A DNA stretch of 64,000 nucleotides from NCBI GenBank assembly GCA_963971285.1, contig OZ020244.1, positions 27,404,001-27,468,000 on the forward strand, read 5' to 3'. Numbering within the stretch: position 1 is the first letter of the stretch; each line of letters opens with the position of its first letter. This DNA is from Astropecten irregularis (taxonomy: Eukaryota > Echinodermata > Asteroidea > Paxillosida > Astropectinidae). The translations under genes and the position numbers were made by a program. The notes below the pieces were generated by a model. That model worked only from the letters and a program-made list of their open reading frames with translations, did no database searches and was not told the origin of the DNA. Below, piece after piece: positions 12,491 to 47,206 of the stretch.

Positions 12491-14229
12491 AAATTCATAG
12501 CTTGCTTCCTTATAAAGTATTACTCATTATTGGAACAGCTACATCACAGTTCCCTCTCCGTGTTTTTTTAAGCGAACATGCTATAATGCTTGAAATACTC
12601 AAATATGTTAGTATGAAGCCTGATAAGAGGCAAAGTTAGGACCGAAGATACGACATCTTACGATCGTTTGTACGACGGAATGAAATAGTCGTTGTCTTTC
12701 ATGTCATTAACATGTCATAACGTCTTGCTTCCGGTTTGTGCTATATACAAAGAGGAAAGTTGCCAAAAGTTGGTCATGATTTTGATGGAGGTACTTCGTG
12801 GTTGTGCCCAAAGTGTGGAGCTGAGAAAGAAATGCATGTGTGTCAAAAGTATAATTTTGGCAAATGCCAGGAATGGTTAAGTTGATCAGGAAATGTCCTC
12901 TGTAACAAGCTAGCCCTTTGTGCGTCTTGAGGACTTGAGCCCGTTCCACAAACATGACCCTGTTGAGCCCCCTTCTTGTGATCCAAGAGAGTTTAGGAAA
13001 ACCTTCCCTTCTGCACACACCATGTCAGCCGTCGTGCGCTGCACGCCGCGGCATTGATGATAATAATGCGATGAAACAGCTTCTTATTATGCAAATCCTC
13101 TTCTCAAAATTGAAGTTTTTGACGAGACACATCCCTCCCTTCTCCTCCATTGCCCGATAGACCCCCCTTCCTGACCGACCGCCATGGCGGTGTACCGCCC
13201 TGTCTGTTGAAGAGCTCTGCAAAGCCAACTTGACGCAGAGCGGTGTCAGTTCGGAGAAAAGGCAAACTGTAAATTGTGTGTCTCCTTCGGTAGGTCGGCC
13301 ACGGATCACGCAGGAAATGATGTATGAAACATCACGGCCAAACCTTTAGACATAAACCGATGCGTTATATACCCTGTGCGCGCGGCTAGAGAAACCTTTT
13401 TCTCCCAAAATATAATTTTGGCGCCTTTATTGGGAACCAACTTGGCCTGTTAAATTAATGGGTTCGTTTGGGGGTAGGCCTATGCCAGTATAATGTTTTG
13501 CTCCTTTCCACTTGCAAAACAATATAGGCCTAGTTTTGTTTTCATCATTACATACAATGAGGTCATCTTGAATATAAAATATATAAAAAATAATGGCAAT
13601 ATAGGCTCATATACAATCGCTTTGCATCACCTCAACGCGAATAACAATCACTGGTGAGATTCCCTCTTCCCCATACAGATCTGCTGTATCACCCCACAGT
13701 CCCCCCTCCCCTCCTACCCCCTACACCCCTTGCCGTATTTAGAAAGAGAAAAGTTCTGCCAGTGATTTATGGTTCGGATATTGACTCTAATTTCCCTCTC
13801 CTTTATTCAATCTCCGCGTATAATTCGTCCCTTAATGGATTGAAGGTGCAAAACCCTTCAGGGAATCAACTCAGTTGCTTGATCCAGGTTTTTTTCTTTT
13901 TGATCCAGAAAATGTTTGGCCAGTTTTTTCCATTTTTGAATTGTCGAATGAGTGGCCAAAACGGAGTTTGGTGGCTACACGGAAGTCGTCAATGGGGGGA
14001 TTTCTTTAATACGTCAGGACCGGTCATTGTTGTGAGAAATCAAATTGAAGCTTCCTTTGCAATCGTTTTTCGTTTGTTATATAGGTTATTATAATGATGC
14101 TAGAAACCCTTAGGTCTGGGCACTCGTTCTGAGGAGTTGCACAAAAAAGTCAGTTTGTTGTTTTGTTTTTCGACATTGCGGAAATTATGAAATGGTTCAA
14201 TTGAAATTATTATTTATTAGAAAATTACT
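12491..14229. other. Non-genic stretch, nothing recognised
   Basis: Several 90-150 codon open frames on both strands have no recognisable family, start context or splice frame. Probably intergenic or intronic. Confidence 0.45.
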
Positions 14230-14975: not shown

Positions 14976-15542
14976 TGTTATGCGAAAGTAGCTGGACACT
15001 AACGGCATATGAGTATTGTTATTCTGTGAACATCGAATGACCCCAGAATAGGATATGTCAGAGACGAATGTGAGTACACTTTTGGAGTCGGCATTACGAA
15101 AACCTTGCCATCCAAAATAAAACCTTCCAACCAAGGAGATAAAATAATCAGTCACAGGAACTGTGTTCTGGAAACAAACTGTCATCGGGCATTTCCCCCT
15201 CGGTTCTCCCCAAGAAAATTACAGTAAGCTCAGGCGAAAAAAAAAACATAAAGGAGTATAATGACAAGGGGAAGACGAGTAGAAATTGCCTAACGATCTA
15301 CTATGAAAGATTGGATTGGAAGCAGCTTGCTCACACCGTATCGGATAAAGCCTGGACTGGGTATACGGTACGGCCAAGCACGATGCCGCTACACACCAGA
15401 GTACTTCCTGCTGAAAGCAATCTACACAAATTGACTAGTTTTGCCCAATTACCGTGCGCTCAATGACGGAGTACAAAGCATTATAGGAGTGCAGGGAAAC
15501 TCCACCTTATACTATGGCGTGCAAAGTTAACATTTAATCGGG

Positions 15543-16075
15543 AATAGAGATATCTCTATTAACAATAGAGATATCTCTATTAACAATAGAGATATCTCTA
15601 TTACAAGACGTGCCAAGTTAACATTTAATCCCGAAATAGAGATATCTCTATTAATAATAGAGATATCTCTATTGTTAATAGAGATATCTCTATTGTTAAT
15701 AGAGATATCTCTATTATTAATAGAGATATCTCTATTAGTAATAGAGATATCTCTATTTCTAATAGAGATATCTCTATTATTAATAGAGATATCTCTATTA
15801 ACAATAGAGATATCTCTATTATTAATAGAGATATCTCTATTACTAATAGAGATATCTCTATTTCTAATAGAGATATCTCTATTAATAATAGAGATATCTC
15901 TATTACTAATAGAGATATCTCTATTTCTAATAGAGATATCTCTATTAATAATAGAGATATCTCTATTAATAATAGAGATATCTCTATTGTTAATAGAGAT
16001 ATCTCTATTTCGCAATAGAGATATCTCTATTGCACAATAGAGATATCTCTATTTCGCAATAGAGATATCTCTATT
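15543..16075. repeat. Palindrome array 1 (24 units)
   Basis: Three units start at 15543, 15564 and 15585. After the internal end-copy come 18 units every 21 bp from 15635 to 15992, then three more at 16014, 16036 and 16058 at 22-bp spacing. The 18-bp core is identical in every unit I read; the 3-bp spacers vary (AAC, AAT, GTT, ATT, AGT, TCT, ACT) and the last spacers are TCGC/GCAC. Confidence 0.95.
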
Positions 16076-16448
16076 ATAATCAGCTTTCGACGTCAGCAGG
16101 TCGCCCTCTACGTTTTGTTTTGTTTAAATTTCTATCATCTTGAGGGGTTTCAAGTCGCGTCTTAATACTGTACTCCCGCAGTTGTTTACGCTGGGAAGTT
16201 TATGTATCTTTTTATGGTACCAGTCTGTCGAGATGTCGCCTAATCTGGCGAATTTCGCTATGTATGCGACGTTCCAAAACGGTCCTTAATCCAGCCATTA
16301 TAAATTAATTGAAAGTGCCTGGGCATAATACATGTAATAACGAACATAATAAAATGACTTGATGCATGATGGGATATGATGCGCGTGCCCCCTGGCTCAC
16401 TGAAACTTTGTGCGTGACGTTACAACGACCACTCCGACCGGAAACATT

Positions 16449-16731
16449 AATAGAGATATCTCTATTAAAACCGGAAGTACACAATAGAGATATCTCTATT
16501 GTTAATAGAGATATCTCTATTGTTAATAGAGATATCTCTATTACTAATAGAGATATCTCTATTGCTAATAGAGATATCTCTATTGCTAATAGAGATATCT
16601 CTATTGCTAATAGAGATATCTCTATTCTTAATAGAGATATCTCTATTCTTAATAGAGATATCTCTATTTCCAATAGAGATATCTCTATTCTTAATAGAGA
16701 TATCTCTATTAACAATAGAGATATCTCTATT
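16449..16731. repeat. Palindrome array 2 (13 units)
   Basis: One isolated unit at 16449-16466 lies between ACCGGAAACATT and AAAACCGGAAGT. It is followed by twelve units every 21 bp from 16483 to 16714. Spacers are GTT, GTT, ACT, GCT x3, CTT x2, TCC, CTT and AAC. Cores match those of array 1 exactly. Confidence 0.95.
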
Positions 16732-16767
16732 CCCGATTAAATGTTAACTTTGCACGCCATATTATAC

Positions 16768-18032: not shown

Positions 18033-18800
18033 TCCACGGAAATTATTCAACCGTGACTTCACTAGCAAAAAAAAAAGAGAACGTGGCACTAAGGCTTCCG
18101 CGGACTCGGTATTCAACCGTGACTTAGCAACGCACGGAAAACAAGATATATTGAGGCACCAAAACATGATATTAAACATACCAGTACGGAAAATCTCGAC
18201 CGTGGCACAGCTGCATCCACGGAAATTATTCAACCGTGACTTAGCTGTGCACGGAAGCACCGAAGTAAGCGATGCATTAACTTGAAAAGGTCTTTAACGT
18301 AGGCTAACTCGAGAAAAATCGACCGTGGCACTGCATCCACGGAAATTATTCAAAAGTGACTTTGCCGCGCACGAAAAACAAGAAAGCAATTTTTAAAACA
18401 CGGTCTTTAACATAAGCACGGAAAAATGCGATCGGACGGTGGCACGGCATCCACGGAAATTATTCAAAAGTGAATTGGCTGTGCACGGAAAACAAACAAG
18501 CAATGTCTAAAACACGGTCTTTAACATACAAGCACGGGAAAACGCGACCGGACGGTGGCACCGCATCCACGGAAATTATTCAACCGTGACTTCGCCGTGC
18601 ACGGAAAAGGGTCTTTAATAAACATACTAGCACGGAAAAACTTGACCGTGGCACTCTATCAACGGAAATTATTCAATCGTGACTTCGCCGTGCACGGAAA
18701 AGGGTCTTTAATAAACATACTAGCACGGAAAAACTTGACCGTGGCACTCTATCAACGGAAATTATTCAATCGTGACTTTGCAACTATTACACGGAAAACA
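18033..18800. repeat. Diverged tandem array of CACGG/CCGTG dyads
   Basis: Eight units carry the word CGGAAATTATTCAA(C/A)(C/A)GTGA or a close relative, beginning near 18033, 18105, 18217, 18337, 18451, 18567, 18660 and 18753. Spacing is 114-120 bp in the middle and exactly 93 bp for the last two, which are nearly identical. Each unit holds several CACGG and CCGTG words able to pair, for example CCGTGG(CACTGCAT)CCACGG. The 93-bp period keeps open frames on both strands, but the peptides look incidental. Confidence 0.8.
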
Positions 18801-23099: not shown

Positions 23100-24080
23100 C
23101 CTCACCGGTTTACCAACATAAGACGAAGAACATGCTATACTTGAAACCATAAAGCTGAATTCAATAGTAACTCGTGTAGTTTTATCCTTGCATTTACAAT
23201 ATTGACTGGTGACGATCAGAGAGAATTTATATTCATCTGCCCTATACCAGGTGAAGACTGAGATGGAGAAATACCGATACTGAATCTACTACAACTACAT
23301 CCGTTTACTTTCTGCATGCACCCGTTACAGGACACAAACTACCGGTCCCAACTACCTTTCAACTTTGGTAATGACCCCCTATTAACATACAATGTGACCG
23401 ACTCACAGAGTATAATCCGCCACAGGTTTACTCTATAGAATCAAAACTTCGTGTAAAAAGTGTATCCACCGGAGATGTCGATCTTTGTAGTGGGAAGTAT
23501 TCGAAATAAAGACCGTCATAAAGGAAGGCCGAGGTGCCGTGAAGTCCAACACAGGAACATTATTTCCGTCAACGCCCACGAAAGAATCTGACATTTTTGT
23601 TTGATAGCGTGACCTTAGTGTCGATTTCTAGAGGCGACCGGTGGTGCAGTGTGCATCGGGCAGGCATGCACACTCTGATAATCTTCTTTCTTCTTTTGCT
23701 CTGATTCAGGAAATCGACCTTCGTGATTGTAAACAAAAGTCACAAGGAGATTTGGTTGTAAACAAAATACAAATGTGGCGGCATTTGGAAGAACGGTAGG
23801 AAAGAGGCAGTGTTTAGAGGGGGCGTCATACCGTGGTACAACTTCCATCGTTCGGCGTGGGAGTCGTAACAAATCGCGTAAAAACAACCACGTCGTTTTG
23901 GACCTGTGAGGGCGCTCTACCAGGCGCCATATTGGTTATAAATATAAGCCAGAAATCGACTTTATCATTATTCGTTTATCATTGAATAGGCCTACATGTT
24001 TTACAAGAAAGATGAGAAAGGTTGTTTTGTGTCTTGGAAGAGATGATTTATTTAAATCATCCAGTTTTCACAACGTGACG
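23100..24080. other. Non-genic stretch, nothing recognised
   Basis: No exon or repeat end identified. A minus-strand 90-codon frame at 23615-23887 has no family resemblance. Confidence 0.4.
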
Positions 24081-24178
24081 GTTAGGGTTTAGCGTTATGG
24101 TTTAGAGTTAGGGGTTTAGGTTAGGGTTAAGGTTAGAGTTAGAGTTAGGGTTAGGATTAGTGTTATAGGGTTAGAGTT
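24081..24178 (+). repeat. Degenerate telomere-like tract
   Basis: About 100 bp of interrupted GGTTAG units (GGTTAGGGTTTAG, GAGTTAGGGTTAGG and variants). Probably an interstitial relic or a minisatellite that resembles TTAGGG repeats. Confidence 0.65.
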
Positions 24179-35742: not shown

Positions 35743-36930
35743 CTACCTCTTATGCCACAAGCCCAAATTCAGCACAGACAGGCATGGAAGCTGCATAATT
35801 CTTTCCAGTCCGACGGTCGTAATCTTAGTGCACCCATACAGATCGATACATCTGAGTTTGTGCAAGTGGTCGCCGATCAGTTTAAGTCCCCTGTCTGTGA
35901 CTTTCACACACTGTCCGATGTTAAGCGTAGTCAGGCCGTGTAGGTTGCGCACCAGACGGTCCAGTCCGTCGTCCGTCACATGGCAAGAGCTGAGACTCAC
36001 GTTCGTCAAATTGTACAATCCCTGAGATATGTGAGTCAGCGCCGCGTCGCCGATCTTGTCGCAGAAGCTGACGTCCAGCGTGGTGAAGTGACCGCCGCAC
36101 TCGGCCAGGTGGGCGATCCCGATGTCACTGATGTCGCAACTCCGAAGGTTCAGCTCCCGTAGGCTGGGCATGCGGGACAGGCTCACCATGCCGGAGTCTG
36201 TGACCCCACAGCAGAAGCTCAGGTTCAGACTCCGGAGTTGGAGGAGTCCCTGCGCCACGTTGCTGAGCGCGCTGTCGGTGATCTTCTGGCAGTCTTGAAG
36301 GACCAACTCCTCTAGGTTACAGACCCCCTTGGATGTCTCGCTGCATACGCCGGCCAGGTAGCCGATCCCTACATCGGTGACGTGCCGGCAACTCCGCAGG
36401 TTCAGAGACTTGAGTCTGGGCAGTCCTCTCGCGATGACAAGCAAGCCCGTGTTGTTGATGTTACAGCAACCGGCTAGGTCCAGAGACTCCAAGTTCTTCA
36501 GATACTGCGCTATCCTCCACAGACTGGTATCCGTGATCTGTTTGCACAGGCTGAGGTTAAGTACTGTCAGAGTGGGAATTTCGTGCATGAAGGCATGCGA
36601 GAGGCCAAAGTCGGTCAGGTTGTAGCATCCACTTAGATTCAGGCTCTGAATGTGTGGCATACCTTGTAAGACGTGACTGAGACTCCTCCGTAGGCTGAGA
36701 ATCTGTACCCGTCGTATCCCCCTGGCCGCTAGACTGGGAAACAAAGACGGGCTGGCACGACGGATGTGCAGTTTGGCCTCCACTCCCCGCCACACTGACC
36801 GGTGGTACGACGCGTCCCGCCATGCACGGCACACTGTGGCAACACGGCCCTTGTCTTTCACATCCAGATAGCTGAAAATGAGCGCCAATATTTCAGGGAA
36901 GAGGCAGGATATGTGGGCCTCACCTGACAT
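35743..36930 (-). CDS. FBXL14: F-box/LRR-repeat protein 14 (SCF ubiquitin ligase substrate receptor)
   Basis: The protein is the substrate-binding subunit of a Skp1-Cul1-F-box E3 ligase. In other animals it (Drosophila Ppa, vertebrate FBXL14) drives turnover of transcription factors such as Paired and Snail/Twist-type proteins. The 395-residue frame starts MSGEAHISCLFPE, close to the vertebrate METHISCLFPE start. The F-box covers about residues 5-52 (PEILALIF, CRAWRD, VWRGVEAKLH). From about residue 75 to the end run about a dozen AMN1-type leucine-rich repeats (LxSLNLxxCxxITDxGL pattern). It ends LNLGLWHKR then stop, near the usual 400 residues. The start at 36930 is chosen because homology begins there, although the frame stays open upstream to an ATG at 37248. 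A possible splice donor AAGAG/GTAGCC overlaps the stop, so an alternative short 3' exon as in vertebrates is possible. No frame break seen; one uninterrupted exon. Confidence 0.97.
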   Translation of the reverse strand: MSGEAHISCLFPEILALIFSYLDVKDKGRVATVCRAWRDASYHRSVWRGVEAKLHIRRASPSLFPSLAARGIRRVQILSLRRSLSHVLQGMPHIQSLNLSGCYNLTDFGLSHAFMHEIPTLTVLNLSLCKQITDTSLWRIAQYLKNLESLDLAGCCNINNTGLLVIARGLPRLKSLNLRSCRHVTDVGIGYLAGVCSETSKGVCNLEELVLQDCQKITDSALSNVAQGLLQLRSLNLSFCCGVTDSGMVSLSRMPSLRELNLRSCDISDIGIAHLAECGGHFTTLDVSFCDKIGDAALTHISQGLYNLTNVSLSSCHVTDDGLDRLVRNLHGLTTLNIGQCVKVTDRGLKLIGDHLHKLRCIDLYGCTKITTVGLERIMQLPCLSVLNLGLWHKR

Positions 36931-37411
36931 GTCGCCCTGCTGGCCTCTAGGGGTGGAACATCGTCGCTTTTTGGTCCTGCTCTTGTGGTGGGGGCCGTCG
37001 TTTTTCCGTTGGAAGCAGGGACATGAATACAGCGTGTACCATGAAGTGAAACTGCAATCACTGGCCATACACATTTGTCCAATACACGGCCAATGCATGG
37101 AGTACCGCGCTGCACCGTGTGATGGCTGGATGGACTCTGTGCTTGCCATGCCCGCGTTACGCGTTGCTGTTTTCAGCTGTACTGTACACGCCGTACGGTT
37201 CAATGGTGAATGATGTGTCACGTGATTGACATCTGCGGTTAGGCCCACGTGATCGATATGGACGGGCTTGATTGGCCAAGCGGTGTAGTGTTTCTTTGCC
37301 TGGCCGGGCTGCCACTGTGAATGGAATGCGACCGTGAGTCAACAACGTAAACACGATGAATGCGCTGCGAATCGAAAGGACCAAATAAAATGGCCAAGCG
37401 AACACTCTCTT

Positions 37412-46109: not shown

Positions 46110-47206
46110 GGTAATAATAATAATAATAAATAATAAAGGAAATTTATATAGCGCCGGCATCCGCCGCAAGCGGCGCTCATGGCACTGTACTGCTGTGCAA
46201 CTAAAAGAAAACCAATAAATCATAAACAATAAAGAATAAAGAAGCATCTGGTTGATTCCACCCCCGAGATGCAATGCCAAAACATGTACATGTATATCAA
46301 ACAAAATAAACAAATCAAGAAGCATCATCCAACAACACGCACAGATGAAATCAACCAAATGCTTCTCTATGCAGGTAAGACTTGAATATGCCAAGTGAAT
46401 CTGAAAGTTTCACAGTTTCTGGTAGTGAGTTCCAAAGCTTTGGTGCAGCGATTTGAAAGCTTCTCTCCCCCCATCGATGTTTTGCCATTTTTTCCAGAAG
46501 GAGTTTGTTGCGAAGATCGTAATCCCCGATGCCCCGGGGAGTAGAACTGGACAAGATCACTTAAGTAGGCTGGAGCGTCACCATGTAGGATCTTGAAGAT
46601 GATGAGGCACAGTTTGTATTTTATCCGTTGTTGAATTGGGAGCCAGTGCAAGTCGGCAAGCACAGGTGAGATGTGATCTGCTTTCTTGGTGAAGGTTATC
46701 ATCCTTGCTGCAATATTCTGTATCCGTTGGAGACGAGAGAGATGTACATTGTTTATTCCGTATAAAAGTGAGTTGCATGAGTCTATCTTAGATGTGATAA
46801 ATGCATGGACGATGGTTTCTGCGGCTTCCCTTGTGAGGTGATCCCGTATTCTGCCAATATTTCTTATTGACATGAAAGCAGACTTCGATATTGCTGTCAC
46901 CTGACTATCCATTTTCATAGTTGAGTCAAACATCACTCCCAGATTGCGAACATGAGTGGAAGGCTGAATGTGAGCGTCACCAACTCTGACATGATCAATT
47001 GTTACCTTCCTGATTTGCTGATTAGATCCTAAAATGATGAATTCGGTTTTTGCATTATTTAACTTGAGGTAATTTCGATTCATCCAAGCTCCAATATCGC
47101 CAATGCAGTCCTCGACTCTTTGAAGCGCTGAGCTAACGTCTGCCTGTATAGGTTTAACTGGTAATAGAGCAGCTGAAGTTGACGATGACGTCCAAGCACA
47201 ATTCCC
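46110..47206 (-). mobile_element. 5'-truncated LINE (CR1/L2-type) with reverse transcriptase C-terminus
   Basis: The minus-strand frame from about 47200 to 46490 encodes the C-terminal part of a non-LTR reverse transcriptase: WMNRNYLKLNNAKTEFIILG, then VRNLGVMFDSTM, LQRIQNIAARMI and LHWLPIQQRIKYKLCLIIFK. The family's LWNSLPETVK block continues in another frame at 46351-46560, so one frameshift lies between, likely in the A-run near 46487-46493. The catalytic YADD region falls at the broken 5' end near 47205. The 3' end is GGCGCTATATAAATTTCC followed by (TTA)n at about 46110-46135, as in CR1/L2 elements. A dead, old copy. Confidence 0.9.

Follow-up and report, generated by a model that had tools for sequence, protein, structure and literature searches.

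Tn7 and phage Mu, both bacterial elements, have several transposase sites at each end, which build a synaptic complex with a transposase resembling retroviral integrases; these end sites are few and non-palindromic. Polintons, which like the element described below make 6-bp target duplications, have termini of the type AG... IS3EU/GingerRoot elements are marked by TA..TA termini and by target duplications that are usually 6 bp long (PMC10045372), the fungal ones ending in TAYGG..CCRTA (PMC12730594), and they have an integrase-like transposase and, in some cases, cargo genes (PMC10045372, PMC12730594). The portions of these two papers on which we draw mention neither subterminal palindrome arrays nor a HECT gene, and the one mention of a palindrome in the portion of PMC12730594 concerns the borders of a TET gene. 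Similarly, a literature search that covered papers rather than Repbase entries returned, in the text it reached, no report of such arrays in IS3EU elements, and a search linking HECT with elements of this kind gave nothing on point among the papers listed.

Transposase sites in ends made of tandem repeats do have a precedent in Galileo, a Foldback-like element of the P superfamily, in which the THAP domain of the transposase binds several sites in the long ends and the extra sites are proposed to add specificity (PMC3688188). Galileo differs from the family described here in its P-type THAP transposase and, as far as that account goes, in having two extra sites rather than tens of phased palindromes (PMC3688188). 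In Muta1, a mosquito MULE, each end contains a 12-bp subterminal repeat in 9 copies, separated by 3-4 bp spacers, and derivatives of this element vary in repeat number and are in some cases gene-less (PMC5225508). It differs in its MULE transposase and its 8-9 bp duplications, and its unit is not described as a palindrome in the part of the paper that we cite (PMC5225508).

A short transposon with palindromic cores at both ends

The locus studied here lies in a stretch of 64,000 nucleotides of contig OZ020244.1 of Astropecten irregularis, which we call the window. Between positions 15543 and 16731 the 18-bp palindrome AATAGAGATATCTCTATT, hereafter the core, occurs 37 times. Every copy is exact: a search of the window with up to 3 mismatches allowed found no imperfect ones, and shuffled sequence gave a mean of only 0.03 matches. 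The preliminary description had reported 37 identical palindromes and about ten versions of a 3-bp spacer, and both statements were confirmed, the spacers comprising ten 3-bp types plus TCGC and GCAC. It had also proposed a 21-bp period that puts all the cores on one face of the helix. This holds for 30 of the 36 core-to-core steps (3 others are 22 bp), but the remaining three intervals are breaks of 50, 391 and 34 bp, so there are three blocks (3 + 21 + 13 cores) and not one continuous phased array. The left bounding sequence of the array is TATGGCGTGCAAAGTTAACATTTAATCGGG and the right one is its exact reverse complement; a 30-bp perfect inverted repeat, and then a 6-bp direct duplication, enclose the whole. 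The element is a non-autonomous DNA transposon of 1,249 bp (15513-16761), whose two ends are filled by the cores; its termini, TATGGCG..CGCCATA, are perfectly inverted, and its target duplication is TTATAC. Its parts are:

15507-15512: left target-site duplication TTATAC, the same as 16762-16767
15513-15542, + strand: 30-bp inverted repeat of the left terminus (TATGGCG..CGGG), matching 16732-16761 exactly in reverse complement
15543-15602: outer left block, 3 palindromic cores, from the core search
15604-15634, + strand: degenerate second terminal repeat within the left array, a 27-bp match with 4 mismatches
15635-16075: inner left block, 21 palindromic cores, mainly 21-bp period
16076-16448: unique internal DNA, 373 bp, with 37 genomic matches
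16226/16227, within the internal DNA: deletion junction, fusing both end regions of a 13.8-kb relative
16449-16731: right block of 13 palindromic cores, with a 21-bp period after a single 34-bp step
16732-16761, - strand: right terminal inverted repeat, 30 bp
16762-16767: right target-site duplication TTATAC

The same palindrome-array structure recurs at many other loci. There are 843 exact cores in the genome, 743 of them within the window and the other stretches analysed. The first 27 bp of the terminal repeat has 97 genomic matches with up to 3 mismatches, and the 57 exact ones include 19 pairs (hand count) that face each other at distances of 1.0-1.3 kb. Both ends were present in 27 of the copies analysed; the 6-bp duplication is exact in 20 of these and has one mismatch in another, and the flanks of the other 6 do not match. 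The degenerate inner terminal repeat is seen in most full-length short copies. Eighteen short copies have between 27 and 37 cores, so a fixed number is not required. Two copies of only 80 bp, L056 (C23:1556242-1556321) and L084 (C28:454750-454829), consist of two termini and one core, exact in L056 and with a single change in L084, and both have an exact 6-bp duplication. Long arrays are therefore not needed, or were lost after insertion; these copies are either mobile in this very small form or what is left of longer copies that collapsed.

The family also has long members. Contigs 15 and 18 each carry a 13.8-kb copy, with 99.6% identity between the two along 13.8 kb. The target duplication is exact for the copy on contig 18; the contig 15 copy has no exact one, and the remains of another copy come after it. 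Contig 1 carries a longer copy, of 24 kb, which other DNA interrupts and whose duplication is exact. The integrase core domain PF24764 of Pfam is matched by frames of the contig 15 copy (E = 7.9e-44 and 6.8e-18), from which the 13.8-kb relative is predicted to encode an integrase-type transposase. Another of its frames (L045 6476-7540, - strand) matches the HECT domain (Pfam E = 5e-9) and is perhaps cargo acting on ubiquitin pathways. Six frames of the 13.8-kb element were scanned, and none matched a capsid or polymerase family. In the contig 18 element, positions 501-651 and 13280-13501 correspond exactly to the two parts that are joined in the 373-bp internal DNA of the window element. The window element is thus a derivative formed by internal deletion.

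Judged by its termini, its duplications and the Pfam match, the window element appears to fit the IS3EU superfamily. TA..TA termini are found both here and in four other families, described below, that begin TATGGGG, TACGGTG, TATGAAG and TACGGAA; the 6-bp duplication of the window copy is exact; and the PF24764 matches provide an integrase-type DDE core. Other classes were considered and rejected. The TA termini set Polintons aside, inverted termini and duplications set aside Helitrons and Helentrons, and a free-standing satellite is ruled out by the terminal repeats and target duplications. The duplications are 6 bp in 20 of 27 copies, as against 8-9 bp in MULEs, and membership of the Galileo/P superfamily is contradicted by the finding of PF24764 and by the lack of any Pfam match to a THAP domain in the frames scanned.

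Two features of individual copies were also seen. Some spacers are reverse-complemented, both in the contig 15 element (L045/L046) and in L071, L069, L060 and L066–for example, L071 reads gcga gtgc gcga where the usual order is tcgc gcac tcgc–and strand switching at palindromic cores may flip blocks of units. The contig 15 element (C15:18262792 onward) and L062, about 1 Mb from it, have a right flank in common for at least 150 bp, owing either to segmental duplication or to insertions into repeats of one kind.

Arrays in other PF24764 families

We scored at least 61 PF24764 matches in the genome. Tandem arrays lie near the gene at 7 of the 9 PF24764 loci examined (window family included), and in five of these seven the period is about 21-22 bp. 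No array was found in the stretch examined around the gene at L086 or L091. The seven arrays are:

Window family: 18-bp palindrome, 21-bp period
L085: CATGGTTTATAAACCATG, irregular spacing, in which 14 and 37-39 bp recur
L087: two opposed blocks of a 31-bp unit
L088: 21-bp unit
L089: 22-bp palindrome TTAGGGCGTTATAACGCCCTAA, 20-23 bp spacing
L090: period of about 21-22 bp
L092: TCACGTACGTACGTGA, 21-22 bp spacing

By eye the unit sequences look unrelated; the arrays of different families could share an ancestor. When compared with shuffles, palindromicity is strong in the window family, L085 and L089 (fraction at most 0.001) and borderline for the consensus units of L090 (0.046) and L092 (0.053), and the units of L087 and L088 are no more palindromic than shuffles (0.37 and 0.23). 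As a control we searched 112,582 bp outside the elements, which contained one array (at least 5 copies, period 15-60). It is at the L074 locus and derives from the window-family core.

Comparison of copies placed the left edges of three of these families at TATGGGG (L085), TACGGTG (L089) and TATGAAG (L088). The L089, L088 and L092 families have inverted terminus pairs that are long (about 11 kb and more) as well as short (about 1-1.8 kb, some shorter); L085 has long pairs only, and each of its ends has, about 0.7 kb further in, another inverted copy of the terminus. Exact 6-bp duplications flank 11 of the 13 terminus pairs tested in four families, including all 7 long ones, and of the other two pairs a short one has a duplication with one mismatch and the second has three mismatches. 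In the three families checked, the far ends carry arrays too, with 16 units in L089, 9 in L092 and about 18 in L088. Seven of the 9 far-end units of L092 are exact 16-bp palindromes, with TAGTT or TAAGTT as the spacer, which repeats the pattern of constant core and variable spacer seen in the window. In all, at least five families in this genome have located termini and a PF24764 gene; in 4 of these five the array period is near two helical turns, and 4 of the five have short derivatives beside long copies. The general array design is already known from Muta1, and what seems to be new is its use across IS3EU families in the form of differently spelled, often phased palindromes.

PF24764 was matched by Pfam in frames of L085 and L087-L092. 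The transposases of six families align with each other, with 39-49% identity to the L089 protein, and their N-terminal region is helix-turn-helix (HTH)-like. A resolvase-type HTH scores above the Pfam cut-off in the L085 transposase (32.6 versus 23.8 bits), and L087 and L091 have HTH_21 matches that do not reach it. Pfam found no HTH in the window-family transposase, in which an HTH-like stretch aligns weakly (E = 9e-4 in one comparison). The core of HTLV-2 integrase gave a weak match (E = 0.003). IS3EU/GingerRoot transposases are characterised by having no HHCC zinc motif upstream of the core; the Pfam matches of six single-frame transposases included no integrase zinc-binding family.

We think it likely that the window element is a young non-autonomous transposon of IS3EU type, and that its palindromic 18-mers, phased at 21 bp, are docking sites for dimers of the family's transposase. 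The palindromic unit suggests binding by a dimer, and the period near two turns suggests that the dimers are on one face. Transposase dimers of the family would dock on the subterminal 18-mers, the 21-bp period would set successive dimers on one face of the DNA, and the many short sites would jointly build one specific end complex. Several results stand against this reading: the one-core copies of 80 bp and the variable number of cores, the two loci at which no array was found in the stretch examined, the units of L087 and L088, which are not palindromic, and those of L090 and L092, which are borderline, the spacing in L085, which is off two turns, the weak HTH match in the window family's own transposase, the slower decay of old cores, which is modest and biased by the mismatch cut-off, and the 7 of 27 window-family copies that have no exact duplication. 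One of two explanations offered in the preliminary description was that the core is a constrained site for a dimeric protein; what survives of this is a set of probable transposase sites at transposon ends, not a free-standing array. A docking role would turn a puzzling palindrome array into a testable rule for end recognition in a little-studied transposon superfamily.

More generally, the ends of IS3EU elements may serve as an address, a phased and often palindromic array that is read by lined-up dimers, with each family's word co-evolving with its HTH. We regard this wider proposal as possible rather than probable. Among six transposases, identity averages 0.45 over the N-terminal region and 0.53 over the catalytic region, a gap and a sample too small for co-evolution to be demonstrable. 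If the address reading were true, several families could be active in one nucleus without cross-mobilising each other, and a lineage would keep its core and period while spacers and unit number turned over freely. Differently spelled units in families of one genome are a natural experiment on how protein-DNA recognition diversifies.

The arrays might instead be sites for a host protein, such as a transcription factor, that drives the element or keeps it silent, as would suit the position of the array shortly upstream of the transposase frame in several families. We consider this unlikely, because arrays are present at both ends in the three families checked and in gene-less copies, and because the spelling of the unit differs by family within one genome, as is more easily understood if each family has a binder of its own than if a single host factor binds them all.

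Substitutions in cores, spacers and internal DNA

From the exactness of the cores it had been concluded in the preliminary description that they must be constrained or repaired in place. To compare rates we used 22 copies, hand-picked for youth and good arrays (L052, L056, L073-L084 and the 24-kb contig 1 element were excluded). We counted 22 substitutions in their 712 cores, which amount to 12,816 bp (0.17%), and 10 in 6,660 bp of unique internal DNA from 18 of these copies (0.15%), the latter rate leaving out L054, L055 and both 13.8-kb elements, whose internal DNA is short or split. The two rates do not differ significantly (Fisher P = 0.85), and perfect cores reflect the youth of the insertions, not repair, so that the earlier conclusion does not follow. 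The core substitutions fall in 18 cores. Three of these have more than one change (two or three) and are possibly the edges of rearrangements; when they are set aside, the count is 15 in 12,816 bp (P = 0.53). One more core, in L061, has an insertion and is outside the substitution count. For spacers we counted at least 5 new variants in about 1,934 bp (0.26%); this is a lower bound, since a change that yields an existing spacer type escapes notice. These variants (TTT, GAT, TCC, CCGC and TAGC, with length variants excluded) were read by hand. Their frequency is not significantly different from that of core changes (P = 0.39). As regards protection of cores within a copy, this is the outcome that the preliminary description had itself named as refuting its view.

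In L052, an old copy, 25 of the 39 cores are mutated, with 32 changes. The consensus core is nevertheless unchanged in L052, L081, L080 and L083 (39, 10, 3 and 4 cores), and it is altered in L074 at one position and in L082 (one core only). Spacers in older copies do differ: 14 of the 27 three-base spacers of L052 (hand count) are agg or cct, neither of which occurs among 554 young-copy spacers. The ratio of core to internal divergence is 0.5-0.9 in L052, L081, L080, L083 and L082, a modest gap (in L052, 4.6% in cores versus 7.3% in internal DNA), with old-core divergence biased low because cores beyond four mismatches are uncounted. It is suggestive, though not conclusive, that constraint acts on the transposing lineage and not on single insertions.

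L074 (C11:1008700-1010500) has 46 cores next to one terminus, 36 of which share a T-to-C change at position 9, and is a local satellite-like expansion of a variant core. This expansion, and the wide variation in unit number among near-identical copies, would be expected of a neutral minisatellite, formed when slippage expanded a palindrome in a transposon end that has no binding role. Such an origin is quite unlikely in our view, given that arrays occur at 7 of 9 PF24764 loci with different units and, in five, a similar period, that the control contained no unrelated array, and that older copies keep the consensus core while their spacers differ. Very improbable is the self-templated hairpin repair suggested in the preliminary description, by which palindromes would stay perfect without having any function: it would suit cores that are perfectly palindromic and, in young copies, mostly without change, the six symmetric pairs of changes found among ten old arrays (4 in L074, 2 in L081 and none in the other eight), and the inverted spacer order of some copies, which suggests strand switching at palindromes, but we reject it on the mutation rates and the asymmetry of the changes, since young cores and internal DNA substitute equally, the 32 changes in L052 include no symmetric pair, and the units of other families are not all palindromic. 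Transposition of a young element with transposase sites in its ends would explain the rise and dispersal of palindromic minisatellite-like arrays without special repair.

Elsewhere in the window, a tandem array of 114-bp and 93-bp units (18196-18778) is located 1.4 kb to the right of the transposon, and degenerate GGTTAG repeats, which are telomere-like, are found at 24080-24178. Two frames on the - strand were also noted by eye, one of 501 amino acids (35743-37248) that is F-box/leucine-rich-repeat-like and one of 238 amino acids (46367-47083) that resembles the end of a LINE reverse transcriptase.
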